DNA from: a virus
DNA length: 45,972 bases
Reading direction: 5' to 3' (one strand)
Virus record (IMG/VR): IMGVR_UViG_3300011114_000545
Location: 1 to 45,972 of that record
This document shows positions 6,526 through 27,491 of this stretch, piece after piece; position 1 is the first letter of the stretch; the number at the start of each line of letters is the position of its first letter. The notes beneath the pieces were generated by a model. The model was not told the origin of the DNA. It did no database searches and worked only from the letters and a program-made list of their open reading frames with translations. The translations under genes were made by a program, and so were the position numbers.

Positions 6526-7409
6526 CCTACGACGCCGCCCGCGACAGCTTCGACTCCTACAAGCTCGCCATCCGCCTGTTGCGTGAGAAGGGGCTGAGGG
6601 AGGGCCGGTTCACGCCGATCAACGATAGGGAGGAAACCCTATGCTCCGCGTCCTCGACCTCTTCTCAGGCATCGGCGGATTCAGCCTCGGCCTTGAGCGC
6701 ACCGGAGGTTTCCGCACCGTCGCGTTCTGCGAAATCGACCCCTACTGCCGGCGCGTCCTCGCCAAGCACTGGCCCGACGTGCCCTGCCATGACGACGTGC
6801 GAGATCTTGGGGCCATCGACGCAGATGTCATATGCGGCGGGTTCCCCTGCCAGGACGTTAGTGCCGCCGGAAAGGGTGCTGGGCTTGGCGGAGAGCGGAG
6901 CGGGTTATGGCGAGAGTTCCATCGCCTCATTCGCGATATTGGACCGCGATACGTTGTCATGGAAAATGTCGGAGCCCTCACTTTTCGCGGACTTGGACAC
7001 GTTCTCAGAGACTTGGCCGAAGTGGGGATGGATGCGGAATGGTTCTGCATTCCGGCTAGCGCCATTGGCGCACCTCACAGGCGAGAACGCATCTGGATTG
7101 TTGCCTACTCCCACGGCATCGGACGCGATCACGTACCACTCGGATACGAAGCGCTTCGACAGTTTGAGCGTGAAACTACGCCGGCTATTCGGATTTCCGA
7201 GCTACCCCAATCCCCGATTTGTCGAGTGGATGATGGGCTACCCGGACGGGTGGACCGATTGCGCTCTCTCGGAAACACCGTCGTCCCCCAGATCCCCGAA
7301 CTCATCGGCCGCGCCATCCTCGCAGCACAGTGACGACCACGAGCGCGCCATCGTCGGCGGTCGCATGAAGCCCCAGAGCATCACGGAGGGACGATGCAAC
7401 ACGGAATGA
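6522..7409 (+). CDS. Phage protein overlapping the Dcm gene in another frame
   Basis: From GTG 6522 (GTGA coupling) the frame stays open for 295 residues. It begins as an ordinary soluble protein (MTYDAARDSFDSYKLAIRL), then crosses the whole cytosine methyltransferase gene in a different frame. The part over 6900-7290 reads DTLSWKMSEPSLF, FSETWPKWGWMRNGSAF, GLLPTPTASD and VEWMMGYPDGWTD. I recall these motifs (W-KTSQ-SL, FSETWPRSGMMRNG, WPTPT, EWLMGFPxGWTDL) as a recurrent hypothetical protein beside phage cytosine methylases, so both frames probably code. The serine- and proline-rich stretch after residue 40 is less convincing. Function unknown. Confidence 0.6.
   Translation: MTYDAARDSFDSYKLAIRLLREKGLREGRFTPINDREETLCSASSTSSQASADSASALSAPEVSAPSRSAKSTPTAGASSPSTGPTCPAMTTCEILGPSTQMSYAAGSPARTLVPPERVLGLAESGAGYGESSIASFAILDRDTLSWKMSEPSLFADLDTFSETWPKWGWMRNGSAFRLAPLAHLTGENASGLLPTPTASDAITYHSDTKRFDSLSVKLRRLFGFPSYPNPRFVEWMMGYPDGWTDCALSETPSSPRSPNSSAAPSSQHSDDHERAIVGGRMKPQSITEGRCNTE
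6641..7333 (+). CDS. C5-cytosine DNA methyltransferase (Dcm-like)
   Basis: This 230-residue enzyme shows the family motifs in order: DLFSGIGGF (I), GGFPCQDVS with the catalytic Cys (IV), MENV (VI), RRERIWIVA (VIII) and LGNTVVPQIPELIG (X). The stretch between VIII and X, which normally contains the target-recognition domain, is only about 50 residues, so this is a minimal version. GGGAGG precedes the ATG. It probably protects phage DNA from host restriction. The gene lies entirely inside another open frame and between the two copies of the 163-bp repeat, as expected of a recently acquired or rearranged cargo gene. Confidence 0.9.
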   Translation: MLRVLDLFSGIGGFSLGLERTGGFRTVAFCEIDPYCRRVLAKHWPDVPCHDDVRDLGAIDADVICGGFPCQDVSAAGKGAGLGGERSGLWREFHRLIRDIGPRYVVMENVGALTFRGLGHVLRDLAEVGMDAEWFCIPASAIGAPHRRERIWIVAYSHGIGRDHVPLGYEALRQFERETTPAIRISELPQSPICRVDDGLPGRVDRLRSLGNTVVPQIPELIGRAILAAQ

Positions 7410-12779: not shown

Positions 12780-14144
12780 ATGTCCCTTCCACAAGCGATG
12801 TTGCGGGAGCACATGCGGTCTCGGCGGATTGCGGAGACGCTGCGTCAGGCTGGGCCGTTGCGTTCTGGCGGCCCTGGGCCTTACGAGGCTCGGCAGTCGG
12901 ACAGGGGGCCGATGCAGGAGAGCATGGCGGCTCCTGTCGATCCGGTGCTGTCGTTCTACGACGACTATTGGAACGGCCTTGTCGGGAAGGGGCAGGGTTC
13001 GGGCTGGTTCGGGATGAACACGGTTTCGCAGGAGTTGATGCGGTTGCAGGGGGTGCAGGACCAATTCGGCGGTCTGTCGCCTGAATACGCGCAGGCGTTG
13101 GCCGAGAGCCCTGTCGGGCCCGGCTTCGGCGTGATGGGGACGGTTGGGGATGTGGCGAAGGGCATCCGGGCGTTCCACGGCTCGCCGCACACGTTCGATG
13201 CGTTCGACATGTCGCGTATCGGCACGGGCGAGGGCGCGCAGGCTTACGGGCATGGCTTGTACTTCGCTGAGAATGAGGGGGTGGCGCGAGGCTACCGCGA
13301 CCGCATTGCCGGGGCCGAATGGGTGGACAAGCGCGGCCTCGCGATTTCGTCAAATACAATATCCAACGAGGTGATGGAGCAGGCCCGGAAAGACGGGCTG
13401 GATATCCTTGAGGCAAACGACGCCGCTGGAATGTGGTCAACCGTGGTCCGAGACGGTGACGGTGCGGCAAACTTCCCCGGTTACGAAAGCGTCCGAACGG
13501 TGCTTGACAGGCTCGGGGTGCGGCTGCGTGAAAAGGGCTCCATGTACGAAGTCCGCATCAACGCCAACCCCGACGACTTCCTCGATTGGGACAAGCCGCT
13601 GAGTGAGCAGTCGCAGCGCGTTGCGGATGTGTTGACTCAGCTTGAGGACAGAATGGGCAGCGGATCCGCGACGATAGGCGGCGAGCGTGTCATTGATCTG
13701 GCGCGGTCTCACGGTGCGACTGGCATGGTGCCTGTTAGGCTCGGGACTCTTATGCGCGACGGCGCGACGGTCGACGAAGCCCTCAACGCCATGGTGGGGA
13801 TGAGCAATAACGCTGATTGGCAGAAGCAGATCGCAATGCTTCGCGGAAAGATCACCGGAAGCGTCGATGTAAAGCGCGTGTTTGGGCCGGATTGGCGTGG
13901 GGCAGATATTGCCAAGCGTAACTTGAATGTGAAACCGGAGGAGGTGGCCGCCGCGTTGCGAGACGCAGGCGTTCCCGGCATCAAGTACCTTGACGCCGGT
14001 TCCCGTGGCGCAGGCGACGGCTCCCGCAACTACGTTGTCTTTGACGACAAGCTCATTGAAATCCTCCGGCGCTATGGCCTCCTGCCTCCCGTGGCGGTCG
14101 GGGCCGGTCTGCTGTCGGGCAACGACGCGGAGGCGGGGCAGTAG
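12780..14144 (+). CDS. ADP-ribosyltransferase-like protein between terminase genes
   Basis: This 454-residue protein carries FHGSPHTFDAFDMSRIG (from about residue 126) and GEGAQAYGHGLYFAENE, the pattern of ADP-ribosyltransferase-fold domains seen in large phage polyvalent proteins (His in HGS, Tyr in GLYFA). The C-terminus holds the conserved ending GVPGIKYLDAGSRGAGDGSR followed by NYVVFDDKLIEILRRYG. The expected catalytic Glu cannot be pinned by eye; YEVRINANPDDFLDW is a candidate region. The N-terminal 120 residues are glycine- and proline-rich. It is probably delivered with the DNA or made early to modify a host protein, but its place between small and large terminase is unusual. Confidence 0.75.
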   Translation: MSLPQAMLREHMRSRRIAETLRQAGPLRSGGPGPYEARQSDRGPMQESMAAPVDPVLSFYDDYWNGLVGKGQGSGWFGMNTVSQELMRLQGVQDQFGGLSPEYAQALAESPVGPGFGVMGTVGDVAKGIRAFHGSPHTFDAFDMSRIGTGEGAQAYGHGLYFAENEGVARGYRDRIAGAEWVDKRGLAISSNTISNEVMEQARKDGLDILEANDAAGMWSTVVRDGDGAANFPGYESVRTVLDRLGVRLREKGSMYEVRINANPDDFLDWDKPLSEQSQRVADVLTQLEDRMGSGSATIGGERVIDLARSHGATGMVPVRLGTLMRDGATVDEALNAMVGMSNNADWQKQIAMLRGKITGSVDVKRVFGPDWRGADIAKRNLNVKPEEVAAALRDAGVPGIKYLDAGSRGAGDGSRNYVVFDDKLIEILRRYGLLPPVAVGAGLLSGNDAEAGQ

Positions 14145-15659
14145 GTGCAAGCCGTCAGTCTCGACTACACGCCCCAACCGCGGCAGGCGCTGCTTCATGC
14201 CACTCCGGCGAGGCTGATCCTCTACGGGGGTGCTGTTGGGGGCGGGAAGTCCCATGCGCTGAGATGGGAGGCGATATCGTGGGCCTTGCAGGTTCCTGGC
14301 ATCCAGGTCTACCTCTTCCGCCGGACTTTGGGCGAGCTGGAAGACAACCACGTCCGTCAGTTGAAGGACAGCCTGAGCCCTCTCCATGGGCACGTCGGAT
14401 ACAACGAGACGCGCAAGACGTTCGAGTTCAAGAACGGCTCAACGATCCGGCTCTGTTATTGCGAGAAGGAGCATGACGTTGAGCGGTATCAGGGTGCCGA
14501 GATCCACGTCCTGCTGGTGGATGAGGCGGGGCACCTGACGGAGTACCAGTTGAATTATCTGGTCGGCCGAAACCGTCTTGGCGGGTTTGCCGAGAAGGTG
14601 GCGGAGGAATTGCGGCACATGCTGCCGAGGGCGGTGTTCTCGTCCAATCCCGGTGGTCCGGGGCATCAGTTTTTGAAACAGTGTTTCGTGGAGCCTGCCG
14701 AGGAGGGGGTGGAGTTCCGCAATCAGCGATACCGCGATCCGCGCGACCCGAACGATCCGGGCAGGTTGTCGATCTACATCCCGGCGCGGATGAAGGACAA
14801 CAAGTTCATTGATTCCGACTACGGCGCTTCTCTTGCCGGTCTTCCGCCAGAGCTTGCACGGGCTCTGAGGGACGGCGATTGGGATGCGGTTGTCGGGCAG
14901 GCGCTTCACACGCTGGCCCGTGAAAAGCACATGCTGCGCCCCTTCACGCCTCCGAGGCACTGGACGCGGTTCATGTCTCTCGATTGGGGCACGGCCAAAC
15001 CGTTTTCGGTGGGCTGGTACACGGTATCCGATGGGGGGATTCTGGAGGGCAAGGAGGCGTGGCCCGAGCGGTGGCTGCCTCCGGGTGCGGTGATCCGTTA
15101 CGCCGAATGGTACGGCTGGAACGGTAACGCGGACCAGGGTGCAAGGCTGGATTCCAGAACCGTCGCCAAGCGTATTCTGGAGATCGAGAAGGAACGTGGG
15201 GAACCGCCGATTGACTACCGCATCGGCGACACGGCCATGTGGGCCGTTCACGACGGCATCTCGATTGCGCACAACATGATGGAAGCAACCGAGGGGCGGT
15301 TGCAGTTGACCCCGGCGAAGAAGTCGCGGGAGCAGAATTACAACGAAATCCTGTGCCGTTTGGCAGGTTCGGAGAATTACCTGACAGATGGCAGGGACGG
15401 CGATGCGCCGATGTTCTACGCGACGGCCGATTGTACGCACTTCTGGCGTACGGTGCCGACGCTGATCCTCGACGGGACGAACCCCGAGAAGGGGCCGGAT
15501 TCGTCGCAGGAGGACCATGTATTCGACGATGTGTCGTACGCGCTCCGGTCCCGTCCGTTCATGACGACGGAATTGGACCGCTACATGGCTGCGCACGGCA
15601 ATGAGATGAGAGAGGCGAAACGTGGCGGAAGATCGAGCGACCCCTACGCCACCCGTTAG
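14145..15659 (+). CDS. terL: Terminase large subunit
   Basis: This 504-residue packaging motor has Walker A LYGGAVGGGKS (about 26-36), Walker B LLVDEAGHL (about 123-131), a coupling-type segment FSSNPGGPGH and an RNase H-like nuclease domain opening with MSLDWGTAKP (Asp near 277), with further acidic residues at RIGDTAMW and DHVFDDVSYAL. It starts at GTG immediately after the TAG of the ADP-ribosyltransferase-like gene. It hydrolyses ATP to fill the prohead and cuts the concatemer. Start site and length are normal for the family. Confidence 0.93.
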   Translation: MQAVSLDYTPQPRQALLHATPARLILYGGAVGGGKSHALRWEAISWALQVPGIQVYLFRRTLGELEDNHVRQLKDSLSPLHGHVGYNETRKTFEFKNGSTIRLCYCEKEHDVERYQGAEIHVLLVDEAGHLTEYQLNYLVGRNRLGGFAEKVAEELRHMLPRAVFSSNPGGPGHQFLKQCFVEPAEEGVEFRNQRYRDPRDPNDPGRLSIYIPARMKDNKFIDSDYGASLAGLPPELARALRDGDWDAVVGQALHTLAREKHMLRPFTPPRHWTRFMSLDWGTAKPFSVGWYTVSDGGILEGKEAWPERWLPPGAVIRYAEWYGWNGNADQGARLDSRTVAKRILEIEKERGEPPIDYRIGDTAMWAVHDGISIAHNMMEATEGRLQLTPAKKSREQNYNEILCRLAGSENYLTDGRDGDAPMFYATADCTHFWRTVPTLILDGTNPEKGPDSSQEDHVFDDVSYALRSRPFMTTELDRYMAAHGNEMREAKRGGRSSDPYATR

Positions 15660-16362
15660 CCTCTACACCCGGCATCCCAATTCACAGATGGTGATGTCCT
15701 TCTTCGCGAAGGGCTGCGGGGGTCGTTTGGCCCCCGTCGGGGCGGGGGGCGATCGGATCTCATGCTACGGTGTTCTGCGGGGTTGTATGGCGGCCATGAA
15801 GGCAGCGGACGCCTTCTGGTACATCGACCATGGGGCCTTTGACCGGGGCAGGTACTACCGCGTCGTAAGGGACGGGTTCTGGATATCTTCGGAGCCCGAC
15901 ACGGACGACGAGCGGTTCCGCAAGCTGAACGTGACGTTGAAGGACTGGCGCACGACGGGCGATCACATCGTCATCGTGCCGCCCTCGCAATTTGCCGAAC
16001 TGGCCCACGATCTGGTGGGCTGGCTCGACGCCGTTTCCATGACGCTGGCGCGCTACACAGACCGGCCGATTGTCGTCCACACGAAGGCATCGAAGGAGCC
16101 CCTGTCGCACGTTTTGCAGGGCGCGTGGTGCCTAGTGACCGACCATTCCAACGCCGCGATAGATGCTCTGACCGAGGGCATCCCGGCGATTATGACGAAC
16201 CCGGCCCGAAGGCTGGGCGACCTGAGAGACATCGAGAACCCGCCCATGAGGCGGGATTTTTTTTGCCGCCTCGCCAACCAGCAATGGACGTTGGACGAGA
16301 TGGCTTCCGGAGAGTGTTGGAGATCACATGAGAGCAGCGATCCCGGTTTACATCGGGTATGA
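15622..16362 (+). CDS. GT-B-type glycosyltransferase-like protein
   Basis: This 246-residue protein opens the sugar cassette. The segment CLVTDHSNAAIDALTEGIPA matches the donor-binding C-terminal element of GT-B enzymes and capsule-type transferases (S-N-x-x-x-E/D-A-L-x-x-G-I/K-P). RDFFCRLANQQWTLDEM is the usual C-terminal ending of such phage proteins, so I take the frame as intact to 16362. The start GTG 15622 overlaps the large terminase by 38 bases. A terminator-like stem with eight T residues lies inside the gene at 16239-16264, so expression of its end and of downstream genes may be tuned or variable. Confidence 0.65.
   Translation: MAEDRATPTPPVSLYTRHPNSQMVMSFFAKGCGGRLAPVGAGGDRISCYGVLRGCMAAMKAADAFWYIDHGAFDRGRYYRVVRDGFWISSEPDTDDERFRKLNVTLKDWRTTGDHIVIVPPSQFAELAHDLVGWLDAVSMTLARYTDRPIVVHTKASKEPLSHVLQGAWCLVTDHSNAAIDALTEGIPAIMTNPARRLGDLRDIENPPMRRDFFCRLANQQWTLDEMASGECWRSHESSDPGLHRV
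16239..16264 (+). terminator. Intragenic terminator-like hairpin with T8
   Basis: CCCGCC (16239-16244), loop CATGA and GGCGGG (16250-16255) form a perfect 6-bp GC stem, followed by one A and eight T residues (16257-16264). This is a canonical intrinsic terminator shape, yet it sits within an open frame about 100 bases from its end. It may attenuate the cassette, and the T8 run is a likely slippage site. Confidence 0.6.
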
Positions 16363-17041
16363 CCGTCGAGAAGAAGAAGCCTGGGACGTGTGCAAACACT
16401 CCCTCCTGCGCCATACGTCAATCCCCGTCCACCCGATCAAGCTGAAGGACACGACCCTTCGTGAGATCGGGATTTACGGGCGGGACTGGCAGGAGCGTGA
16501 CGGCATACGTTACGACACGCTCGACCGAAAACCGTTCTCGACGGACTTTGCCTTCACGCGGTTCCTGTCACCGATCCTCGCGCTTTATCAGGGTTGGTCG
16601 CTGTTCATGGACTGCGACATGCTCTGGCGGGCTGACATCGCGGAACTGATGGCGCTCGCCGATCCGAAATACGCGGTGATGTGCGTCAAGCATGATTACA
16701 CGCCGAAAGAGGGCGTGAAGATGGACGGCCAGCGGCAGGAGACCTACCGCCGCAAGAACTGGTCGTCGTTCATGCTGTTCAACTGCGAGCATCCTGCCAA
16801 CCGTTTCCTCACGCCCCGCGCGGTGAGTACCGAACCCGGCGCATGGCTTCACGGCATGGGCTGGCTGAAGGACGAGGATATCGGCGGGCTGCCGGAAGCG
16901 TGGAACTGGCTCTGCGGGTGGTCGTCCCCGGACATCGACCCGAAGGTGGTCCACTACACGCTCGGAGGTCCGTGGTTCGACGATTACCGCAACGTCCCCT
17001 TCGCCGGGGAGTGGTTGCAGGAACGCGTGAGGATGCCGTGA
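16328..17041 (+). CDS. GT-A-fold (GT8-like) glycosyltransferase
   Basis: This 237-residue protein has IPVYIGYDRREEEAWDVCKH at the N-terminus, characteristic of GT8-type enzymes, and the metal-binding DxD in LFMDCDMLWRADI (about 96-108). VVHYTLGGPWFDDY near the C-terminus matches the family's HxxG region. It should transfer a sugar from a nucleotide donor with Mn or Mg. GGAGATC precedes the ATG. It overlaps both neighbours and is one of five linked sugar- or methyl-transfer genes between large terminase and portal. Confidence 0.82.
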   Translation: MRAAIPVYIGYDRREEEAWDVCKHSLLRHTSIPVHPIKLKDTTLREIGIYGRDWQERDGIRYDTLDRKPFSTDFAFTRFLSPILALYQGWSLFMDCDMLWRADIAELMALADPKYAVMCVKHDYTPKEGVKMDGQRQETYRRKNWSSFMLFNCEHPANRFLTPRAVSTEPGAWLHGMGWLKDEDIGGLPEAWNWLCGWSSPDIDPKVVHYTLGGPWFDDYRNVPFAGEWLQERVRMP

Positions 17042-17634
17042 TCGTCAACGGCTGGATGCTTCCGAAGGACGACACGCACTTCCCGAAATACGCCGAGGCC
17101 GGAGACTACCAGCCGACCCTCATGGGCATGGCGCTGAATTACGTTACCGACTTCACAGCGGCGGTCGATGCCGGGGGCCACATCGGGTTCATGTCGCGCA
17201 GGCTGACACGCTCGTTCGAGAGGGTCTGGTCATTCGAGCCGGTGCCGGAGAACTTCGACTGTCTGCGGATCAACGCACCCAAGGCAACGGCAATCCGCGT
17301 GGCGCTAGGTAACGACCGCGGCGAGATCGAGATGGCCTGTCCTGCGGTCGGGAATTCCGGCTCATGGGAAAGGGGTGATGGGATCACGGTCCCGCTGATG
17401 AAGCTGGACGACTACCCGATTTCCTCCGTGGGCTTCGTCAAGATCGACGTGCAGGGAATGGAAACGGACGTTCTGCTCGGCGGAGAAATGCTGATCCGCA
17501 AGAGCCGGCCGGTGATCGCGGTTGAGGTCAAGATGCGTGGCGAAACCAACCACGCCGTCGAGGCTCTGCTGCTGTCGTGGGGTGCTCGTATCGCCGCGCG
17601 GATCGGCAAGGATATCGTGGCGGTCTGGCAATGA
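17038..17634 (+). CDS. FkbM-family methyltransferase
   Basis: This 198-residue protein is GTGA-coupled to the gene before it. It has AAVDAGGHIGFMSRRL (SAM-binding motif I), VWSFEPVPENFDCLR (motif II with acidic residue) and SVGFVKIDVQGMETDVLLG, the signature of FkbM-type enzymes. The family O-methylates sugars and small molecules, so the likely substrate is a glycan built by the neighbouring transferases. Length is slightly short of the usual range but all core motifs are present. Confidence 0.85.
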   Translation: MIVNGWMLPKDDTHFPKYAEAGDYQPTLMGMALNYVTDFTAAVDAGGHIGFMSRRLTRSFERVWSFEPVPENFDCLRINAPKATAIRVALGNDRGEIEMACPAVGNSGSWERGDGITVPLMKLDDYPISSVGFVKIDVQGMETDVLLGGEMLIRKSRPVIAVEVKMRGETNHAVEALLLSWGARIAARIGKDIVAVWQ

Positions 17635-18362
17635 TCCGGGTCTGCACGTCGTTTTCCACGAGACAGTATGAGGTCTACGGCAAGCGGTTCCTCGATACCT
17701 ATCGGGAGTTCTGCGACAAGCCGTTGACGGTCTTTCACGAGGGTCAGGATCTACCCGATTGGGTGGAGGCGAGAGACCTTCGCGAAGATGCGGACCTGCT
17801 GGCGTTCCTGAAACTCTGGGGCGAGAAGCCCTTTGCGCATGGCTTGGTGAGTGGCGGTCTCAACTACCGTTTCCAGGCGGTGAAGTTCGCCAAGAAGGTC
17901 TTTGCCTACACGAACCATCCTCCATTGACCCCGGAAGATGTCTGGGTCTGGATCGACGCCGACGTGGAGTTTTTCGCGCCGGTCACGGAGGAATGGTGGT
18001 CCCGTTCCTGTTCGTCAGGTTTCGTCGGGTCGTACATCGGCCGGCGGAAGTGGAGCCATCCCGAGTGTGGGTTCATGTCGTTCAGCGGCCGGTACAACGG
18101 CGCTGAGATCCTGTCGGAGATACGCCGCATCTACACGTCCGGCCTGCTGTTCGGTTTGCCCGAGTGGCACGACAGCTATGTGTTCGGCGTCGTTCAAAGG
18201 GCGTGGGATTTGAGGGGCCGGATTCGGTTCTTCAACCTCGCCGAAACCGTCGAGGAAACAGGCGATGTCCCGCACCCGTGGCCGGACACCGTGCTTGGAG
18301 AGGTCTGCCGCCACCACAAGGGGCCGGTAGCCAAGAGAGAAACCTATGGAGAGATCGCGTGA
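17631..18362 (+). CDS. GT-A-like glycosyltransferase
   Basis: This 243-residue protein is ATGA-coupled to the FkbM gene. The central DVWVWIDADVEFFAPV carries a DxD-like DAD motif, and PEWHDSYVFGVVQRAW supplies the downstream acidic segment seen in many GT-A enzymes. The N-terminus (MIRVCTSFSTRQYEVYGKRFLD) fits the nucleotide-binding strand. Family number cannot be set by eye. It is distinct from the GT8-like gene two positions upstream. Confidence 0.7.
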   Translation: MIRVCTSFSTRQYEVYGKRFLDTYREFCDKPLTVFHEGQDLPDWVEARDLREDADLLAFLKLWGEKPFAHGLVSGGLNYRFQAVKFAKKVFAYTNHPPLTPEDVWVWIDADVEFFAPVTEEWWSRSCSSGFVGSYIGRRKWSHPECGFMSFSGRYNGAEILSEIRRIYTSGLLFGLPEWHDSYVFGVVQRAWDLRGRIRFFNLAETVEETGDVPHPWPDTVLGEVCRHHKGPVAKRETYGEIA

Positions 18363-19771
18363 ACCGTTACGAACAGCTTTTGCAGATCATCGAGCAGACC
18401 AAGCCCCGCACCATCATCGAGGTCGGAACATGGAACGGCCTTCGCGCCGTTCAGATGGCGACCGAGGCTCTGAGGTTCGGCCCCGTCCATTACGTCGGAC
18501 TGGACCTGTTCGAGGAAGCCACGGCGGAAACCGACGCCGCCGAATTGAACGTCAAGGCCCACTGCACGATTGACGAGGTTCACGCCCGCCTGACCGACCT
18601 CCAGGCACAGGACACGCGGTTCACGTTCACGCTCTGGGGCGGCAACACGAACGACACGCTGCCCGAGGTGATGAAGCTCGAAGCGATGGAAGGCCCGTCG
18701 CTGGCGTTCATCGACGGCGGGCACTCGGTCGAGACGATCCGCAACGATTATGAACACCTGAAGGGGTGCGATTTCGTCGTTTTGGATGACCTGTACCAGC
18801 CAGACGACAGGGGCTGTCCCGACGTTGACAAGTACGGCTGCAACCACCTGCTGGAGAGCATCGGCACCCTCGGTGTTGACTGGTTCATTCTGCCCGTAGG
18901 CGATCCCGTGGTGACCGGCGGGCGCGTTCACATGGCGACGGTGGGGTTCAATCCGCCCATCGCCGTGACGAAGAAGCTGGTTGTCAAGACGAAAAACAGC
19001 GTCGATGACGGCGTGATCCTCGCTCATGTTTCGTCGGCGCTGTCAAGGGGGCTGCCGGAGATGCAAGCCTGCCGTCGCCACGGTCGCGAGGCCGTGGTGG
19101 TGTCCGGCGGCCCGACGTTCAAGTTGCATGTGGCCGAAATCAAGGCGCGTCAGGACGCCGGAGCCTATGTTTTCTGCGTCAAGACCTCGCACGACTGGTT
19201 GATTGCCAACGGCGTGGTTCCGTTCGGCTGCATCCTGCTCGACCCGCGCCCGCATGTGCTGGACTTCGTGTCTGATCCGCACCCCGACGTGACCTATTTC
19301 GTAGCCTCTCAGGTGCATCCGGCGACGCTGGACCGGCTACAGGAGCGCGGATCGAAGATCGTCCTCTACCACGCCCTTGTTGGGGCTGGTGAGGCCAACC
19401 TTCTGGCCGGAAAGAGCCTTGTTGTCGGCGGGTCGACCTCCGCCACGCGGGGCATTTCGATGCTGAACGCCCTCGGGTTCGCGATTTTCGACCTCTACGG
19501 CTACGACTCGTGCTTCCAGTCGAAGCCGGGCGACGAATACACGTTCGAGGGTGACGGAAAGCGGCCCATCGACGTGAAAATCAACGGTCGGGCCTTCTGG
19601 ACGACCCCGGAACTGATCGCACAGGCCCAGGATTTCGAGAAACTGGCCGAAATGGCCGTTGGCGGCAACGCCATCGAGCTTGAGGTCCATGGCGACGGCG
19701 TGATCCCGCATATCTGGTCGAAAATGAGGCCGAACAAGGCCGATTTTGGGGTTGAGTATGGCATTTCCTAA
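18359..19771 (+). CDS. Fused SAM methyltransferase and MptE/DUF115-like protein
   Basis: This 470-residue protein looks like two domains. Residues 1 to about 195 are a class I methyltransferase (TIIEVGTWNGLRAVQMA as motif I, SLAFIDGGHSVETIRNDYEH of the Methyltransf_24 type). Residues about 225-460 resemble the MptE-like/DUF115 domain (VVVSGGPTFKLHVAEIKA, YVFCVKTSHDWLIANGV, GCILLDPRP, VVGGSTSATRGISMLNALG), the core of Maf proteins that attach nonulosonic sugars to flagellin. GTG start with GGAGA upstream, GTGA-coupled. A Maf-like transfer to a virion protein is an attractive but unproved role. It overlaps the portal start by 14 bases. Confidence 0.75.
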   Translation: MNRYEQLLQIIEQTKPRTIIEVGTWNGLRAVQMATEALRFGPVHYVGLDLFEEATAETDAAELNVKAHCTIDEVHARLTDLQAQDTRFTFTLWGGNTNDTLPEVMKLEAMEGPSLAFIDGGHSVETIRNDYEHLKGCDFVVLDDLYQPDDRGCPDVDKYGCNHLLESIGTLGVDWFILPVGDPVVTGGRVHMATVGFNPPIAVTKKLVVKTKNSVDDGVILAHVSSALSRGLPEMQACRRHGREAVVVSGGPTFKLHVAEIKARQDAGAYVFCVKTSHDWLIANGVVPFGCILLDPRPHVLDFVSDPHPDVTYFVASQVHPATLDRLQERGSKIVLYHALVGAGEANLLAGKSLVVGGSTSATRGISMLNALGFAIFDLYGYDSCFQSKPGDEYTFEGDGKRPIDVKINGRAFWTTPELIAQAQDFEKLAEMAVGGNAIELEVHGDGVIPHIWSKMRPNKADFGVEYGIS

Positions 19772-21878
19772 CGATCCACAGATGCCCCCTATGACCCCTA
19801 TGGGGCAGCTGGGGCAGATGTCGCCCGACATGGGCGCAATGCCCCAGATGCAAGGTGGAATGCCCCAGATGCAGGGCGGGATGATGCCTGCCGCTCCGCA
19901 GATGAGCGCGCCGATCCCGCCGACCACGAACGAATTGGAGAACCTTGCTGAGACGATGGAGCCCGACCGGCTGCGCGAGATAGCCGAGACGGTGATCAAG
20001 GAATACGAGGCTGACGACGACGCTCGCAGCGAATGGCTGGAAATGCACGCATCGTGGATGCGGCTTTACCACCAGGACGACGTGCCGACGAACTCCATGT
20101 ACGATTGGGCCTCGGAGGAAAGCCTGCCGATCCTTGCGGAAGCCTGCAACCAGTTCGCGGCCCGCGCCTACAAGGCGTTCTTCCCGAACCGGAACATCAT
20201 CAAGGCCGTCCCCATCGGGAAAGCCTCCGAGGCCGATTGGAAACGCGCCGAGCGTGTGTCGAAGCACATGTCATGGCAGCTTCTGGCGCGCGATCATTCG
20301 TACAAGAAGAACAAGCGCCGTCTGCTGCTGTCCTGCTCCGTCCACGGGTCGCACTTCACGAAGACGTTCTACGATCCGATCAAGGAAAAGAACACGGTCG
20401 TCAACGTCCGCGCTTCCGACCTCGTTGTTCCTTACGGCACGGGTCCGCGTGACATTGAAGACCTAGAGCGCAAAACGCACGTCATTCCCATGGCCGTGGG
20501 CAAGGGTGCCCGCCTCGCTGCGGCCGGGTTCTTCATCGAAGATCCGAAGAAGGCCGAGTCCCGAGACGACGGTCCCGTTGCCGATGCTGCGAACCGCGTC
20601 GATGGTCTGACCAAGGGCGGCACGGAGGACACGTCATCGGATCAGGCGGTGATCCTCGAACAACACCGCTGGCTCGACCTGGACGACGGCGAAAAGCCCT
20701 ACATCGTCTGGGTGGACCTTGAGGGCCGGAAGGTTCTGCGCATCGCGCGCCGTTGGGACGATGACCCTACGGAGCCGGTGGAGCATTTCACGCACTATCC
20801 GTTCATCGAGAACCCGGACGGGTTTTACGGGCTCGGCATGGGCCACCTTGTCGGCGAGATCAACAAGTCGTGCAACAAGCTGCTGCGCCAGATGCTCGAC
20901 AGCGCGACCCTTGCCAACGTCGGCAATCATTCCGGCTTCATGTCGCAGGCCGTCGCCCCGCAGGGGGGTGAAACCTCGATGGAGTTGGGCAAGTTCAAGA
21001 AACTCGCCGGATCGGTGGAAGACCTCAACCGGGGCATCTTCCAGTTCAAGTTTCCCGGCCCGCCGCAGGCCATGGCGGAAATCCTGAACCTGATCATGGC
21101 GCGGTCGGATCGTCTGTCGTCCGTCACGGAAATGGTGTCCGGCGCTGCCGAGAAGGTGATGCAGCCGACTGCCGTTCTGGCGCTGATCGAACAGGCCATG
21201 GAGCAGTATTCCTCGGTCTACGAGGGTCTGTTCGATGCGTGGGGCGAGGAGCTTCAGAAGGTCTACCGGCTGAACGGAAAGTACCTGCCGGTGCAGGAGT
21301 ATTTCACGGTCCTTGACGCTCAGGGGCCGGAAGTCCAGCAGGTGATGCAGACGGACTATCTGGCGGATTTGCAGATCATGCCTCTGGCCGATCCGAAGAT
21401 GGCAACGGAACAGCAGAGATTGACGCGGGGGCAGGTCGAATACGATTTCCTGCTGAATTATCACGCGACGCTGTTGCAGATGCCCGCCCCGATCCAGCCG
21501 TTCATCTACAAGGCGGCGTTGCAGTTTGCCGAGACGATCCAGATGGACGACGCGGACCAGAAACTCTCGCCCCCGCCGCCGCCACCGGAGCCGAAGCGGA
21601 TCGACGATCCGATGATCGAGAATATGATGGCACTGATGCCGGGCCAGCCGCAGGTGCCCGACGTGGCGCTCGATCAGAACCACCTTGAGCATTTGAAGGC
21701 GCACGAAACCTTCCTTGTCGATCCGGCCTACGCGGACAGGTTCCCGCCCGGCGGCAAGGAGGCGATGACGCAGCACATCCAGAAGCATGTAGCCCTGCTG
21801 TACGGGCTCACCGAAGCAGATATGGGTCATGTGATGGAAGGCGCTTCTTCGCAGCCCGCGATGGGGGCTACGGCATGA
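19758..21878 (+). CDS. Portal protein, P22-like
   Basis: This 706-residue protein is the size of large podovirus portals. It has a methionine-, proline- and glutamine-rich N-terminus, then a conserved portal body (WLEMHASWMRLYHQD, WASEESLPILAEACNQFAAR, VHGSHFTKTFYDP, FYGLGMGHLVGEINKSCNKL). The C-terminal part is proline-rich (LSPPPPPPEPKR) before a helical end. It forms the dodecameric DNA gate at the head vertex. An in-frame TTG lies at 19746, but ATG 19758 is preferred. Confidence 0.88.
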   Translation: MAFPNDPQMPPMTPMGQLGQMSPDMGAMPQMQGGMPQMQGGMMPAAPQMSAPIPPTTNELENLAETMEPDRLREIAETVIKEYEADDDARSEWLEMHASWMRLYHQDDVPTNSMYDWASEESLPILAEACNQFAARAYKAFFPNRNIIKAVPIGKASEADWKRAERVSKHMSWQLLARDHSYKKNKRRLLLSCSVHGSHFTKTFYDPIKEKNTVVNVRASDLVVPYGTGPRDIEDLERKTHVIPMAVGKGARLAAAGFFIEDPKKAESRDDGPVADAANRVDGLTKGGTEDTSSDQAVILEQHRWLDLDDGEKPYIVWVDLEGRKVLRIARRWDDDPTEPVEHFTHYPFIENPDGFYGLGMGHLVGEINKSCNKLLRQMLDSATLANVGNHSGFMSQAVAPQGGETSMELGKFKKLAGSVEDLNRGIFQFKFPGPPQAMAEILNLIMARSDRLSSVTEMVSGAAEKVMQPTAVLALIEQAMEQYSSVYEGLFDAWGEELQKVYRLNGKYLPVQEYFTVLDAQGPEVQQVMQTDYLADLQIMPLADPKMATEQQRLTRGQVEYDFLLNYHATLLQMPAPIQPFIYKAALQFAETIQMDDADQKLSPPPPPPEPKRIDDPMIENMMALMPGQPQVPDVALDQNHLEHLKAHETFLVDPAYADRFPPGGKEAMTQHIQKHVALLYGLTEADMGHVMEGASSQPAMGATA

Positions 21879-22375
21879 TTGAGGCGGCCAATCTGCGCGA
21901 ACTTCTTGCATATGAACAAGAGACCGGCACGTTTCGGTGGCGGGTACGGCGTGGCCGGCATCTTGCGGGTTCAATCGCTGGTAGCCAGTTAAATTGCCGC
22001 AACGGAGGGCCTTATCGTCATATCGGGGTCAACGGCAAATGGTACCTTGCCCATCGTTTGGCGTGGCTGTGGATGACGGGGGCATGGCCTGATGGTCAGG
22101 TAGACCACATCGACGGCGACGGCCTGAATAATTGCTGGTCGAACCTACGTTCTGCGTCCCAGTCCCAGAACATGGCGAATGTTGGCCCGCGCTCCAATAA
22201 TACAACCGGGTTCAAGGGGGCGTACTTCGACCGGCGTCACGGCATGTTTTTCGCCCAAATTCAAGCCGAGCATCATACGCATTGGTTGGGCTATTTCGAG
22301 ACCGCCGAAGAGGCAAACGCGGCCTATGCCGTGGCTGCCGACAAACACTTCGGCCAGTTCGCGCGCTCGGCATGA
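21875..22375 (+). CDS. HNH homing endonuclease with AP2 domain
   Basis: This 166-residue protein has HRLAWLWMTGAWPDGQVDHI and DGDGLNNCWSNLR (HNH core with the DHIDGDxxNN motif), then NTTGFKGAYFDRRHGMFFAQ and HWLGYFETAEEANAAYAVAA, an AP2/ERF-type DNA-binding domain. This pairing is typical of mobile freestanding homing endonucleases. It overlaps the portal stop (ATGA) and the next gene (ATGA), so it inserted without disturbing translation of its neighbours. Confidence 0.92.
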   Translation: MIEAANLRELLAYEQETGTFRWRVRRGRHLAGSIAGSQLNCRNGGPYRHIGVNGKWYLAHRLAWLWMTGAWPDGQVDHIDGDGLNNCWSNLRSASQSQNMANVGPRSNNTTGFKGAYFDRRHGMFFAQIQAEHHTHWLGYFETAEEANAAYAVAADKHFGQFARSA

Positions 22376-22584
22376 CGCACGTAGTAGAGAAGGACGAGAT
22401 CGAGGCATGGCAGCGCCAGCCGGTAACCCAATGGCTAATGGATCGCCTGCGGGACAGGTGCCCATGTGATCTCAGCGCCTTCCGCGCTGCCGATGGCTGG
22501 GATCGCGTCAACCGCATCAAGGGCCAGTCCGACGTGATGGCCTACCTGAACGATCCAATGGAACTCTGGCGTCTCGACCAGTGA
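22372..22584 (+). CDS. Small virion-module protein of unknown function
   Basis: This 70-residue helical protein (QWLMDRLRDRCPCDLSAFR, DVMAYLNDPMELWRL) follows the homing endonuclease by ATGA overlap. Small proteins of this style often follow the portal gene. No family named. Confidence 0.65.
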   Translation: MTHVVEKDEIEAWQRQPVTQWLMDRLRDRCPCDLSAFRAADGWDRVNRIKGQSDVMAYLNDPMELWRLDQ

Positions 22585-22594
22585 GGATGATGAC

Positions 22595-23473
22595 ATGACG
22601 ACTGCACAGACACTTGGTCGCGCTGGCCGCAACGGCGACACGACCATTGGCCATCTGACGCCCGGCGAGATCGTCATCCCGCGCGGGCTGATCGACCATC
22701 AGCCGCAGTTGATGGCAGCCATCATCAAGGCGTTTTCCAAGTATGGCGAGGCCATGCAGGGGCCGGTTGACTGGCGGCGTTACGTCGTGGGCGATCCGTC
22801 CGGCCCGACCAACCCCAAGTCGGGTGCGGAGGAATTCTTCGGCCCCGGCCCCGGTTTCGGCGGCGCTTCACAGGGCGGGAGTTTCAGCGGCGGACAGGCC
22901 GCTTCGGGAGGCGTGCGGGCGGTGAGCGGCGGCATCGGCGGGTTCCTGAACAGGATCACTCCGCAGGATGTCCTGACCACCGGCATGGGCATGATCCCCG
23001 GCGTTGGGGCCGTGCTTGGTGCGGTGAAGGGTTATCAGGCGCTTACCGGAGACATGGGAGTGTCCAAGGCCCCTGACGGGCATGGCCCGCAGCAGGGCGG
23101 CGCTCCAGGCGGTGCGTTGGGCATGAACCGCGCCAGCCCTGCCGGAAACCCCATCAGCCGCGCCACGGCATTCGCACGGCCGGGCATGATCGGCATTCCG
23201 TCCGGCCTCGACCTGTCGCCGGGCATGTCATCGCTTCAGCAGCGCACGGCGATCGCCACCAACGCGCTCTACGGCGACAACAGCGTCTATCGGTCTGACG
23301 AGGCGAAGGACTACTACAAGAATTTGCTCAACCGCGACCTGATCGGCAACGACGGGAAGATCGGCGACATGGGTCAGTTGATGCCCATCGAGTCGCAGTA
23401 TCTCCAGCAGGTGCTGGGCCTGTCCTACCAGCCGACGACCACGAGCCTACTGAACGCCATCGCTGCGGCGTAG
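22595..23473 (+). CDS. Glycine-rich structural protein
   Basis: This 292-residue protein starts with RAGRNGDTTIGHLTPGEIVI, a segment I recognise from phage structural proteins, followed by a long glycine-rich stretch (about residues 80-200) and a folded-looking C-terminus (YKNLLNRDLIGNDGKIGDMG). It is probably an ejected or tail-associated protein. No catalytic motif seen. A GAGG-type ribosome site precedes the ATG. Confidence 0.6.
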   Translation: MTTAQTLGRAGRNGDTTIGHLTPGEIVIPRGLIDHQPQLMAAIIKAFSKYGEAMQGPVDWRRYVVGDPSGPTNPKSGAEEFFGPGPGFGGASQGGSFSGGQAASGGVRAVSGGIGGFLNRITPQDVLTTGMGMIPGVGAVLGAVKGYQALTGDMGVSKAPDGHGPQQGGAPGGALGMNRASPAGNPISRATAFARPGMIGIPSGLDLSPGMSSLQQRTAIATNALYGDNSVYRSDEAKDYYKNLLNRDLIGNDGKIGDMGQLMPIESQYLQQVLGLSYQPTTTSLLNAIAAA

Positions 23474-23496
23474 TGCAGCCCGCCTTGAGAGATACA

Positions 23497-23799
23497 ATGA
23501 CGGAGAAACTACCCTTTACCCCATGGTTCGGCCGCGTCCTGCTGAAACGGGACCGGCTCAAGAAAGTCGGAAGCCTCCTGATCCCTGACGACATCCAGCG
23601 GCGTCACAGCAAGGCGCGCGGCGTGGTTGTCGCCATCGGCGAACAGTGTTCCGAGACGACGAAAAACAGCTTGGGCAAGACAGTCCTGTTCGGCGCTCAT
23701 GCCGGTGCATGGCTGGATGCCAACGGCGTCGAGTGTCCCGACAAGGACGCCGACTTTTTCCTGTGCAACGAAGACGACATCCTTGGAGAGTGTGAATGA
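23497..23799 (+). CDS. GroES-like co-chaperonin
   Basis: This 100-residue protein aligns with GroES/Cpn10 along its length: FGRVLLKRDRLKKVGSLLIP at the start, RGVVVAIGEQC, GKTVLFGAHAGAWL, and the ending FFLCNEDDILGECE (family: YLIMREEDILGVIE). The region corresponding to the mobile loop (KKVGSLLIPDDIQRRHS) is present. Its place just before scaffold and capsid suggests it adapts host GroEL for capsid folding, as T4 gp31 does. I prefer ATG 23497 over an in-frame GTG at 23473. Confidence 0.82.
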   Translation: MTEKLPFTPWFGRVLLKRDRLKKVGSLLIPDDIQRRHSKARGVVVAIGEQCSETTKNSLGKTVLFGAHAGAWLDANGVECPDKDADFFLCNEDDILGECE

Positions 23800-24584
23800 C
23801 AGAAGAGACGGTTGCCCCTGTCGGGCAGCCGGTCACCGAGACCATTGCCACCCCGGCTGAACATGAACCGGCGGGCAACACGAATGAGCGCCCCGAAGGA
23901 TGGGAGCAGGTCGATCTGACCGAACTCCCGCCCGAGATCAGGGGCAAGTACGAGGCCCGCATCAATCGCCTCTACGGTCAGGTCAAGCGCAGCGAAAGCG
24001 TCATGCGCGAACTGGCCGAAAACCAGCGCCGCCTTCAGGGCAAGATTGACAACTGGGAAGTCGGTCAGGTCCAGCAGCGCACGTCGGGCCGCCTTCAGGA
24101 ACTCCAGCGCGATTACAAGGTGGCTTTCGAGCGTGGCGATGCCGACAAGGCATGGGCCATCCAGCGCGAACTTACCGAATTGCAGGCCACCTCGACGCGC
24201 CCTCCCGTGCGCCAGGCCGAGGAACCGAAGCAGCCGTCCGGCGGCCTTGCCGTCGAAGAGGCCGAGGCCATCGGCGAATGGGCGCAGGCGCGCCCCTACG
24301 CGCGTGACGGCAACGAATGGCAGCCGTGGACTGCCTCTCAGTTGAACGAACTTTACGTCCATCCCCAGTGGCGGGATCGTCCCATCGAGGACAAGTTGGA
24401 AGAGGTTGACCGGCGCTTCCGGGCGCAGACGAAGCCCGCAGGTGCTGCGGTGCTGGACGGCCAGGGCGGTCGCGCCCAGGCCCGTGGAACCAAACTCACC
24501 AACGAACAGCAGGCCGTCGCCCGGATGCTGTTTCCTGCGATGAAACCGGCTGATGCATACGCCAAGTACGCGAAGGGGCTGTGA
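23796..24584 (+). CDS. Scaffolding-like protein
   Basis: This 262-residue acidic protein has a disordered N-terminus (TEETVAPVGQPVTETIATPA), a long coiled coil (about 55-130; RINRLYGQVKRSESVMRELA) and a helical C-terminus. These features and the position two genes before the capsid fit an internal head scaffold. It is ATGA-coupled to the GroES-like gene, which supports shared timing during head assembly. Confidence 0.75.
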   Translation: MTEETVAPVGQPVTETIATPAEHEPAGNTNERPEGWEQVDLTELPPEIRGKYEARINRLYGQVKRSESVMRELAENQRRLQGKIDNWEVGQVQQRTSGRLQELQRDYKVAFERGDADKAWAIQRELTELQATSTRPPVRQAEEPKQPSGGLAVEEAEAIGEWAQARPYARDGNEWQPWTASQLNELYVHPQWRDRPIEDKLEEVDRRFRAQTKPAGAAVLDGQGGRAQARGTKLTNEQQAVARMLFPAMKPADAYAKYAKGL

Positions 24585-25102
24585 TGTACGAAGACATGAC
24601 ATGGAACCAGCTTCGGAAGCTGGCGACCGACAACGGAATCAAGGTCCACGGGCGTGGGCGTGGCGAGATCGAGGCGGAACTCTCCGCCGGCGAGATCGCC
24701 GTTGCCCCGCCGAAGGGCCGCAAGTCATGGGCACCCGCCCGGATGCTGGACCTTGCCGGGAAGCTCCCCGGCTTCCGGTACCGATGGGTGGATCACGATC
24801 CCGCCAACATCCGCAAGAAGATCGCGGAAGGTTGGACATTCGTGAACAGAGAGACCGGCCACCCCGTCACGCACGACGATCCCAACCTCGTGCATGGGGG
24901 AGCCAATGGAACGTTGGGTTATCGAGATCTGGTAGCGATGGCGATGCCCGAAGAGACCGCCGCAGAACGAGATGCTTACTTCCGAGAGAAGGCTGAGGAA
25001 CAGCTTGCAGGCGTCAACGAGAAAGCCGCGTCCAACATGCAGAACATTGGACCCATGGCGACGACACGCAAGGGGAACCTCGAAATCACCCGTATCAAAT
25101 AA
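24584..25102 (+). CDS. Head-module protein with SAP/Rho-N-like N-terminus
   Basis: This 172-residue protein begins with MTWNQLRKLATDNGIKVHGR, a short helix-extended-helix pattern typical of SAP, HeH or Rho-N domains that bind nucleic acid. The rest is charged and helical (AERDAYFREKAEEQLAGVNE). Lying between scaffold and capsid genes, it may bind the portal, scaffold or packaged DNA. Assignment is tentative. Confidence 0.6.
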   Translation: MYEDMTWNQLRKLATDNGIKVHGRGRGEIEAELSAGEIAVAPPKGRKSWAPARMLDLAGKLPGFRYRWVDHDPANIRKKIAEGWTFVNRETGHPVTHDDPNLVHGGANGTLGYRDLVAMAMPEETAAERDAYFREKAEEQLAGVNEKAASNMQNIGPMATTRKGNLEITRIK

Positions 25103-25120
25103 CCTCGAAAGGAACAGGCA

Positions 25121-25717
25121 ATGGTTGCCTCCCCCAACGGGTTCAAGGCTGTCAGGCATCTCGGTGGTGAGATTCGCTTTCGTAGCGCGACCTACATCGT
25201 CGATGACAACAACCCCAAGCCCATCTACGTCGGCCACGCCGTCGCGCTCACGAGCGGACGCGTGGTCGAACACTCCTCGACCCTCGCGGGGCCGATCCTC
25301 GGCATCGTGAAGGCTTGCTACAGCGCGACGAAGAACCGCCCGCTGACCTTCAACCAGCCCTCCACCGGCCCGTACATTCCGGCGTCCACCCGTGGCTATG
25401 TGGAGGTCTACATCGACCCCCAGATCGTCTACGAGGTCGTCGCGGATTCCGGTATGCCGAACGACGCTCAGGGAATGCTGGGCGAGATCACGGCGACCGG
25501 CTCGGGCCGCAACAAGACGGGTCAGTCGATGATGGAGATGAAAACCTCCACCTTCGTCGCTCAGACCTCTGTCAACAGCCAGACCCTTCCGTTCCGCGTC
25601 ATCGGCATCGCCCGATCCGAGGAACCCGGACTGGGCACCGGCTACGAGAGCGACTCGCGGACGAAGATCGAGGTTGTGATCAACAACCACGTCTTCCGCC
25701 AGTCGTTCCCGGTCTAA
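25121..25717 (+). CDS. Probable head decoration or capsid accessory protein
   Basis: This 198-residue beta-rich protein has no signal peptide or enzyme motif. VGHAVALTSGRVVEHSST and GPILGIVKACY are typical of capsid-decoration beta folds. AAAGGAAC precedes the ATG. It lies directly before the major capsid gene, the usual place for a decoration protein. Confidence 0.65.
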   Translation: MVASPNGFKAVRHLGGEIRFRSATYIVDDNNPKPIYVGHAVALTSGRVVEHSSTLAGPILGIVKACYSATKNRPLTFNQPSTGPYIPASTRGYVEVYIDPQIVYEVVADSGMPNDAQGMLGEITATGSGRNKTGQSMMEMKTSTFVAQTSVNSQTLPFRVIGIARSEEPGLGTGYESDSRTKIEVVINNHVFRQSFPV

Positions 25718-25729
25718 GGAGGACATGCA

Positions 25730-26626
25730 ATGACTGTCGCAACTGGCAACTTTGCCGAACTCCTCTGGCCCGGCATCCGCGAACTGTTCGGGGACGCCTA
25801 CAAGTCGTATCCGAGCGTCTACAGCCGCGTCTTCGACGTCCAGAAGTCGGACAAGACGTTCGAGAAGATTCAGGGTGTCACCACCCTGGGTCTGGCTGGC
25901 ATCAAGGATCAGGGCGATACCGCCGCCTACGCTGATCCGATCCAGGGTTTCCAGAAGGAGTTCGCGCACGTCGTGTACGCGCTCGGCTCCTCGGTGACCA
26001 AGGAGATGTACACGGACGATCAGTACTCCTACATCAACCGCATCCCGACGATGCTGGCCGAGTCGATGAAGGAGACGGAAGAGACCGTCCACGCCGCCGT
26101 CTTCAACAACGGCTTCTCGACGGAAACCACGGCTGATGGCGTGGCGTTCTTCGCCGCGACGCACATCAACGCGGCGACCGGCACCACGCAGTCCAACATC
26201 CCCTCGACGGCGGCCGACCTGACCCAGACATCTCTGGAGCAGGCGTTCATCGACGTGGCCGGATGGACGGACGATCAGGACAAGAAGAAGCAGTTCACGC
26301 TGAACCGCCTCCTCGTCCCGCGTCAGCTTCGTTTCGTGGCTCAGAAGATTCTGAAGACCTCGGGCGAAGTCGGCACCGACGCCAACACCATCAATCCGAT
26401 GAACGGTGCGGTGGAGATGATCGAATGGAACTACCTGACGGACACGGATGCGTGGTTCTGCCTGACCGATGCGAAGACCTCCGGTCTCGTGTCGTTCGAG
26501 CGTTGGGCCATGTCTCTTGATCGCGATCAGGAGTTCGATTCGATGAGCCTGAAGTTCCTCGCTTCCAAGCGCTGGAGCCAGGGCGTCACCGACTGGCGCG
26601 CTGCCTACGCATCTGCGGGTGCGTGA
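25730..26626 (+). CDS. Major capsid protein (Mu gpT-like)
   Basis: This 298-residue protein resembles Mu gpT-type HK97-fold capsids: DTAAYADPIQGFQKEFAHVV, YALGSSVTKEMYTDDQYSYI, LAESMKETEETVHAAVFNNG, GVAFFAATH and LLVPRQLRFVAQKIL. It has a strong GGAGG ribosome site, its own downstream terminator, and codon use consistent with high expression. No maturation protease gene is seen nearby. Confidence 0.9.
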   Translation: MTVATGNFAELLWPGIRELFGDAYKSYPSVYSRVFDVQKSDKTFEKIQGVTTLGLAGIKDQGDTAAYADPIQGFQKEFAHVVYALGSSVTKEMYTDDQYSYINRIPTMLAESMKETEETVHAAVFNNGFSTETTADGVAFFAATHINAATGTTQSNIPSTAADLTQTSLEQAFIDVAGWTDDQDKKKQFTLNRLLVPRQLRFVAQKILKTSGEVGTDANTINPMNGAVEMIEWNYLTDTDAWFCLTDAKTSGLVSFERWAMSLDRDQEFDSMSLKFLASKRWSQGVTDWRAAYASAGA

Positions 26627-26632
26627 TTGATC

Positions 26633-26662
26633 GGGGCGGCCTTCGGGTCGCCCCCTTCTTTT
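26633..26662 (+). terminator. Intrinsic terminator with UUCG tetraloop
   Basis: GGGGCGGCC (26633-26641), loop TTCG, and GGTCGCCCC (26646-26654) form a 9-bp stem with one G-U pair, capped by the very stable UUCG loop and followed by CTTCTTTT. It lies 7 bases after the capsid stop and probably raises the ratio of capsid to tail transcripts. Confidence 0.85.
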
Positions 26663-26687
26663 CCCTCACAGCCAAAGGACAAACCTC

Positions 26688-27155
26688 ATGGCGACTCCCT
26701 CGTTCCGCCAGCCGATTCGGCATGGCAAGGATACCGGCGTTCCCCACACGACCTCGTTGGGCAACGCCCTGATGACGCAGATTGCCTCCGTCTCTGGAGG
26801 TTTCTCGGTTGCGACGCAGATCGCGCGCCTCCCGGAAGATACCGAAGGCTATGCGATCACGAGCAACATCCACAGTTTCGTTCTGGACCTCGTGACGGCG
26901 CAGTCTCAGGTGTCGGGCAATGCTGGTGACACGTCGTTTGAGATCGGCACGTCCGGCGATGCGACCTATTTCGCGCGCATCAAGATTTCGGCGGCTGGCC
27001 GCTACCTCATCACGACCTCCAACGGTTCGGCCGGTGCCAAGGACAAGTGGTTCGGTCTCGGCAACGTTCCGATCTACGCCAAGATTTCGGCGGCCGGTTC
27101 GGGCATTTCGGCCAACGCGACGGGCTACATCACGACCCTCTACATTCCTCGATAG
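26688..27155 (+). CDS. Virion structural protein (head or fibre accessory)
   Basis: This 155-residue protein has beta-strand-rich sequence (GDTSFEIGTSGDATYFARIK, AAGRYLITTSNGS) resembling a jelly-roll or decoration protein. AAAGGAC lies upstream of the ATG. No close family recognised. Confidence 0.6.
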   Translation: MATPSFRQPIRHGKDTGVPHTTSLGNALMTQIASVSGGFSVATQIARLPEDTEGYAITSNIHSFVLDLVTAQSQVSGNAGDTSFEIGTSGDATYFARIKISAAGRYLITTSNGSAGAKDKWFGLGNVPIYAKISAAGSGISANATGYITTLYIPR

Positions 27156-27164
27156 GAGGGCACC

Positions 27165-27491
27165 ATGAGCCGAGTCACGTCGGTTACGGTGACGGGGGTT
27201 AGCGCCAGCAACGCTATCCCCCTGAACCACTACGCCAACCCGTTCAGCGTCGGCTTTGCCGTTGTCGTTGTGGGCACGTCTGCGCCGACGTACACGGTGC
27301 AGCACACCTTCCACGATGTTCTCGGCGGCGCGACTGCGACATGGTTCGACCACTCGTTCGTGTCGGGCCAGACGGCAAACCGGGATGGCAACTACGCCTT
27401 CCCGGTCATGGCTGTCCGTCTGAACTCCACCGTGTCGGGTGACGGGGCCACTCCGTCCGCCACTCTGCACGTCATTCAGGCGGGCTGCTGA
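27165..27491 (+). CDS. Small beta-rich virion protein
   Basis: This 108-residue protein is nearly all alternating hydrophobic and polar residues (SVTVTGVSASNAIPLNHYAN, FAVVVVGTSAPTYTVQHTFH), as in beta-sandwich decoration proteins. A GGAGGG ribosome site precedes it. It and the next gene overlap by TGATG. Confidence 0.6.
   Translation: MSRVTSVTVTGVSASNAIPLNHYANPFSVGFAVVVVGTSAPTYTVQHTFHDVLGGATATWFDHSFVSGQTANRDGNYAFPVMAVRLNSTVSGDGATPSATLHVIQAGC

Follow-up and report, generated by a model that had tools for sequence, protein, structure and literature searches.

The five genes between the large terminase gene (terL) and the portal gene of IMG/VR virus record IMGVR_UViG_3300011114_000545 probably encode a pathway that works in the cytoplasm, needs no carrier and furnishes a virion protein with a methylated glycan. 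The record, 45,972 bases read at full length, is the window of this analysis. Five open reading frames (ORFs) at 15622-19771 on the + strand, here called g1 to g5, occupy the whole interval from terL (14145-15659) to portal (19758-21878). An earlier inspection of the letters, below called the sequence-only reading, had described five coupled genes at this place as a cassette that builds and methylates a glycan. The genes are as it described them, and the function is supported by the protein families, by nucleotide-sugar genes in related loci and by fusions among the genes. The cassette is more widespread and ordered than a single-genome oddity: it is a conserved glycan module of phages, one of whose enzymes is fused, Maf-like and phage-specific.

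Related IMG/VR contigs were gathered by searching with terL and g5 and then with alignments, and terL, portal and the cassette genes were mapped by purpose-built profiles. In this survey of other phages, which the sequence-only reading had suggested, a core of g1, g2, g4 and MptE (the C-terminal domain of g5) recurs in this order in all 19 loci showing both terL and portal, the window included, with an interval of 4.3-8.1 kb; the presence of MptE in 19 of 19 is partly by construction, since most clade members were found through it. The methyltransferases vary, with FkbM in 4 of these loci and a g5-type methyltransferase in 8. The core is still kept in the five loci whose terL is of Pfam Terminase_3, a family other than that of the window. 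Inserts in related cassettes include epimerase/GDP-mannose-dehydratase-like proteins (12) and cytidylyltransferase-like proteins (10), and further inserts match methyltransferases, radical SAM and HNH. Such a set is what nucleotide-sugar and glycan synthesis would call for, with one or two homing endonucleases added. The matches listed for related cassettes (25 families) include no flippase, polymerase or lipid-carrier transferase.

Of the 19 loci, 14 encode g4 and MptE as a single fused protein; in the remaining five, the window included, g4 is separate and a methyltransferase is fused to MptE. A second phage type (30 loci) has one protein of ~780 residues with g4-like (glycosyltransferase A fold, GT-A), methyltransferase and MptE domains, adjoining g2, and here the fusion and g2 lie between ribonucleotide reductase/Hsp20 and holin/small terminase genes. 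Because cassette genes are fused to each other, we take them to belong to one pathway. Another cassette gene lies no more than 3.5 kb away in 58 of 79 loci seeded with g2 and 74 of 76 seeded with g4.

Two further features of related loci concern single proteins. Directly upstream of the g4-MptE fusion, locus L003 encodes a protein of 484 amino acids (aa) at 13792-15246, with close relatives in L022, L025, L037 and L039; it is possibly a glycan hydroxylase, because its C-terminus weakly matches 2OG-Fe(II) oxygenases (0.028). The TerL of L005 (4422-6746, 774 aa) carries, close to its C-terminal motifs, an insert resembling an intein (start CLIGSTKVYTPEG, end VHNC), and the terL of L019 is likewise interrupted.

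In a portal tree built by a quick method, the 34 cassette-bearing portals form one clade with full support from the Shimodaira-Hasegawa-like approximate likelihood ratio test (SH-aLRT); most members were found by MptE, so a cassette-less member could be missed. L002, L003 and L208, found by terL or portal instead, also carry MptE. No cassette occurs in 46 portal relatives outside the clade that have terL and portal both in view. The distance between their terL and portal profile matches, which stop short of the gene ends, is <700 nt in 34 relatives and mostly 700-930 nt in the rest, with one at 1,704 nt. These mostly short distances support the premise of the sequence-only reading that the two genes are normally adjacent; they adjoin in Salmonella phage vB_SE1_KM. 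Recent insertion into one phage was rejected, the cassette being present clade-wide.

The MptE family had no match in 50,697 phage records and none in a first scan of 84,980 cellular genomes. A second cellular-genome scan gave a single match, a contig of a Sneathiella metagenome-assembled genome on which g2 is followed by g4, methyltransferase and MptE. The family is thus nearly restricted to phages, and a cellular origin was rejected, the sole cellular match having the phage-type gene order.

In the window the genes are tightly packed (Table 1). The overlaps are 38 nt for terL/g1 with GTG 15622 as start (0 if ATG 15688), 35 nt for g1/g2, 4 nt each for g2/g3, g3/g4 and g4/g5 (GTGA, ATGA and GTGA, respectively) and 14 nt for g5/portal with the portal ATG at 19758. 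Overlaps between all genes and with both neighbours, as previously described, were thus found, the first depending on the GTG start. Likely starts of g3, g4 and g5 are 17038, 17631 and 18359, the mechanical ORF starts (16843, 17577 and 18164) being too early. An internal terminator was rejected: terminator-like sites of the region, including a hairpin and T-run at 16239-16255 inside g1, are within the chance number. Hydrophobic segments of the membrane type are absent from all cassette proteins.

The AlphaFold2 model of g5 (mean confidence score pLDDT 91.3) has as its best Foldseek match the Maf glycosyltransferase 5MU5 (2.8e-9), followed by O-methyltransferases (about 1e-5, COMT-type) and archaeal MptE/HPPK 8sd5 (2e-5). 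5MU5 is Maf, a putative pseudaminic acid transferase (PMC9298399). A fused relative in L069 matches NCBIfam PseD at 1.4e-10, with 14.6 bits, far under the model cut-off of 670. The Maf-like partner named by the sequence-only reading is therefore a real link. Maf enzymes glycosylate Ser/Thr of flagellin using cytidine monophosphate (CMP)-sugars, and ulosonic acids are attached (PMC11339370). With Maf (PseD) enzymes such as that of Magnetospirillum magneticum (5MU5), g5 shares the central MptE-like/DUF115 alpha/beta domain, by profile and by fold; by analogy, direct transfer onto an assembling protein would be the mode of the phage cassette too. The architecture of the phage proteins is different, the N- and C-terminal domains of Maf being replaced by a methyltransferase or a GT-A domain, and the family occurs in phages, without a flagellin context. 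The fold of the MptE 6-hydroxymethylpterin diphosphokinase is likewise present in g5 (8sd5, TMt 0.70). Unlike that enzyme, the phage domain does not stand alone, being fused to GT-A and/or methyltransferase domains among glycosyltransferases, and no pterin or folate family is among the Pfam matches listed for the window or for cassette inserts.

For g1, the sequence gave a weak DUF6716 match alone (0.0035). Its AlphaFold2 model (pLDDT 89.5) matched best the modified GT-B transferases of 3-deoxy-D-manno-oct-2-ulosonic acid (Kdo) KrkA, WbbB and KpsC, at 1.6e-4 to 3.6e-4 and probability 1.00, with low TM-scores (0.3-0.5). These retaining enzymes (GT99/107/140) have a QXXXD nucleophile motif and a (K/R)XHP CMP-binding motif (PMC12887879). 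Both motifs are absent from the conserved columns of a 40-sequence g1 alignment, in which D69, S176, G186, P188 and E226 are invariant. g1 shares the modified GT-B fold and differs in the motifs and the low TM-score, and membership of the Kdo transferase families was rejected.

g3 is by sequence a clear FkbM methyltransferase, above curated cut-offs for PF05050 (5.7e-17, 62.8 bits against 22.7) and TIGR01444 (4.5e-20, 72.6 against 37.7). g2 matches phrog_28018 at 9e-66; its match to PF01501 (GT8) is weak and below cut-off (0.0088, 16.1 bits against 24.3), and its PDB matches, to WbbM (0.0022) and glycogenin, are weak. Its DxD (D95, D97) is invariant in a 9-sequence alignment. g4 had no match in Pfam, NCBIfam or PDB sequence searches, and PDB sequence searches with g1 and g4 gave nothing useful. 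In a 40-sequence alignment of g4, W107, D109, D111, E145, H180-D181-S182, H228 and K230-G231 are invariant, and g4 is predicted to be GT-A-like from this DxD and the other GT-A-like invariant residues. The profile searches and structure predictions that the sequence-only reading had suggested (AlphaFold2 for g1 and g5) thus found transferase families and folds. Its assignment of all five proteins as transferases stands by family, fold or invariant motif, with the reservations that GT8 is below cut-off for g2 and that g4 lacks a library match.

Table 1. The cassette and its flanking genes in the window
Feature	Position	Strand	Basis
terL, large terminase, left neighbour	14145..15659	+	PF03237 1.5e-6; PHROG terL 6e-36
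g1, 246 aa, GT-B-like glycosyltransferase	15622..16362	+	GTG start (ATG 15688 possible); AlphaFold2 model and Foldseek
g2, 237 aa, GT8-like GT-A transferase, DCD residues 95-97	16328..17041	+	PF01501 weak; phrog_28018; invariant DxD
g3, 198 aa, FkbM-family methyltransferase	17038..17634	+	PF05050; TIGR01444
g4, 243 aa, predicted GT-A-like transferase, DAD residues 109-111	17631..18362	+	invariant residues
g5, 470 aa, methyltransferase and MptE/Maf-like domain	18359..19771	+	PF13578, PF01973; AlphaFold2 and Foldseek
g5 N-terminal class I O-methyltransferase-like domain	18359..18958	+	PF13578 Methyltransf_24 3.7e-8; Foldseek TomG/COMT/TrmR
g5 C-terminal MptE/Maf-like domain	18980..19768	+	PF01973 7.7e-16; 5MU5 by profile 0.0019, by fold 2.8e-9
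portal protein, right neighbour	19758..21878	+	PF23899 SU10_portal 1.8e-7; PHROG portal 4e-17

Homologues also occur in isolated phages. Pelagibacter phage Mosig has homologues of g1, g2, g4 and FkbM in one run, plus a sulfotransferase, and Caulobacter phage CcrPW has a homologous g1-g2-FkbM between tail genes and lysozyme; homologous genes are present in Caulobacter phage CcrColossus too. The Mosig and CcrPW sets differ from the cassette in having no MptE match and in not lying between terL and portal. In Synechococcus phage S-SCSM2R (L011:9004-12529), a g2 homologue is near genes annotated KdsB and KdsA (CMP-Kdo synthesis).

In the pathway that we favour, soluble g1 (GT-B-like), g2 (GT8-like), g4 (GT-A-like) and the Maf-like domain of g5 would add sugars stepwise from nucleotide-sugar donors in the host cytoplasm, with no lipid carrier or oligosaccharyltransferase involved. 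The FkbM protein g3 and the methyltransferase half of g5 would O-methylate the glycan. If the g4/MptE pair acts as Maf does, it would place a sugar on Ser/Thr of a structural protein that is being assembled, or lengthen one there. Soluble glycosyltransferases without a lipid carrier, together with a Maf-like domain and methyltransferases, argue for direct protein glycosylation, and the siting of the genes within the packaging/portal block suggests that the acceptor belongs to the virion. Families and folds, overlaps, the conserved core and its order, the fusions, the near-restriction to phages and the nucleotide-sugar-type genes in sister cassettes were computed directly. We infer the product (a glycan on a virion protein), the Ser/Thr site, the order of steps and the donor sugars, and late expression is deduced from position. 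Several points weigh against the proposal. By sequence, neither g1 nor g4 matches any characterised enzyme, and the MptE fold is common to a pterin kinase. The four Mosig homologues adjoin ribonucleotide reductase and primase genes, not structural genes, which means that position does not compel a late role in the virion. As to the sugar, the acidic one favoured by the sequence-only reading is suggested by fold; g1, CMP-Kdo-transferase-like in its modelled fold, lacks the QXXXD and HP motifs.

The main rival, which we nevertheless judge unlikely, is that the cassette remodels lipopolysaccharide or capsule glycans on the host surface, which might, for instance, block superinfection or keep progeny from binding again to debris. 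Outer-core synthesis of lipopolysaccharide involves GT8-like enzymes, and the fold of g1 is similar to that of Kdo transferases; it is because both kinds of enzyme also build lipopolysaccharide, and because the Mosig homologues lie outside the structural module, that this rival ranks first. The window phage, moreover, encodes a pectate-lyase-fold protein (PF12708, Pfam) and has a tail-spike-like gene, so its host probably bears polysaccharide. Such remodelling fits less well with cassette proteins that have no membrane segments, with sister cassettes for which neither lipid-carrier transferase nor flippase nor polymerase is among the matches listed, and with a packaging-gene position that would change the surface only late, and the Maf-like domain suggests that the acceptor is a protein. 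If the acceptor were instead a host protein or a small molecule, serving takeover or signalling, the cytoplasmic transferases could act on any protein, and the location near replication or nucleotide genes in the second phage type and in Mosig would suit it; the clade-wide packaging-portal position and the multi-enzyme length fit a structural glycan better, and we regard this alternative as improbable.

Glycosylation and methylation of phage DNA bases against restriction, an acceptor that the sequence-only reading had allowed, is least credible. T4 is the classic case of phage glycosyltransferases acting on modified pyrimidines. According to the title of PMC12838424, the DNA of Shewanella phage Thanatos bears a pentose on cytosine, and the window has two DNA-methyltransferase-like genes at 5361-7409. 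Against these precedents, Pfam scans of the window ORFs contain no hydroxymethylase, thymidylate synthase-like, TET/JBP or base-kinase family, and hence no base to glycosylate was found. The cassette proteins have no match to DNA glucosyltransferases, and several transferases plus sugar synthesis exceed the needs of base modification. DNA glycosylation was rejected because no base-hypermodifying genes were found in the window by these scans.

Virion glycosylation has a precedent in cluster O mycobacteriophages, in which capsid and tail tube are reported to be modified by three glycosyltransferases encoded in tandem downstream of an O-methyltransferase (PMC11600133, citing Freeman 2023). That system (Corndog/cluster O) resembles the cassette in clustering phage glycosyltransferases with an adjacent O-methyltransferase; it differs in its genomic site. 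No Mycobacterium phage is among the matches listed from tblastn of the cassette proteins against the 50,697 phage records. We know of no Maf-like domain in the mycobacteriophage system and, to our knowledge, virion glycosylation is proven in few phages. Searches of the open-access literature gave nothing relevant on an MptE-like phage system or on glycosyltransferase with FkbM, terminase and portal; since they covered open-access papers only, the lack of a description does not prove novelty. The statement of the sequence-only reading that no system of this composition at this site is described agrees with that literature, and has to be qualified in that the cassette is a standing feature of a clade and that mycobacteriophage virion glycosylation is known.

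A broader proposal, which we offer tentatively and hold to be somewhat doubtful, is that Maf-type protein O-glycosylation evolved in phages, a phage-specific glycosyltransferase/methyltransferase/Maf-MptE fusion making a methylated (perhaps ulosonic-acid) virion glycan in the cytoplasm; an uncultivated podovirus clade would have retained it as a core trait, and a second, different phage group would carry it too. In a deep phage clade, each of the 34 members sampled keeps its glycan genes in the packaging/portal block, and a phage-only GT-A/methyltransferase/Maf-like enzyme recurs in the second phage type. Should virions be the target, many environmental phages would have sugar-coated particles, which would matter for adsorption, for recognition by hosts and grazers and for the transferability of models from bare-protein phages; the fused enzyme would, moreover, offer a compact new tool for protein glycosylation.

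The window phage is tailed and probably a podovirus, given its SU10-type portal and adaptor, internal-virion-like proteins, tail-spike-like protein and pectate-lyase-fold domain. A stretch of ~219 bp, 92% identical and with a short GC-rich tandem repeat, is common to window 1-296 and 45754-45972, and the contig may represent the complete genome, its circle left unclosed by the assembler inside the repeat. At 47-988 on the - strand, a gene with an internal tandem repeat array encodes an Imm5-like immunity domain (PF21805, 6.8e-7). Directly upstream of terL, 12780-14144 encodes a 454-aa protein with an ART-PolyVal ADP-ribosyltransferase-like match (6.8e-5, below cut-off), which also matches the PHROG for a large protein labelled endolysin. 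Downstream of portal, 22000-27500 contains a GroES-like co-chaperonin domain (Cpn10, 2.3e-8), probably in ORF 23473-23799; L012 and L014 also have GroES-like genes downstream of portal.

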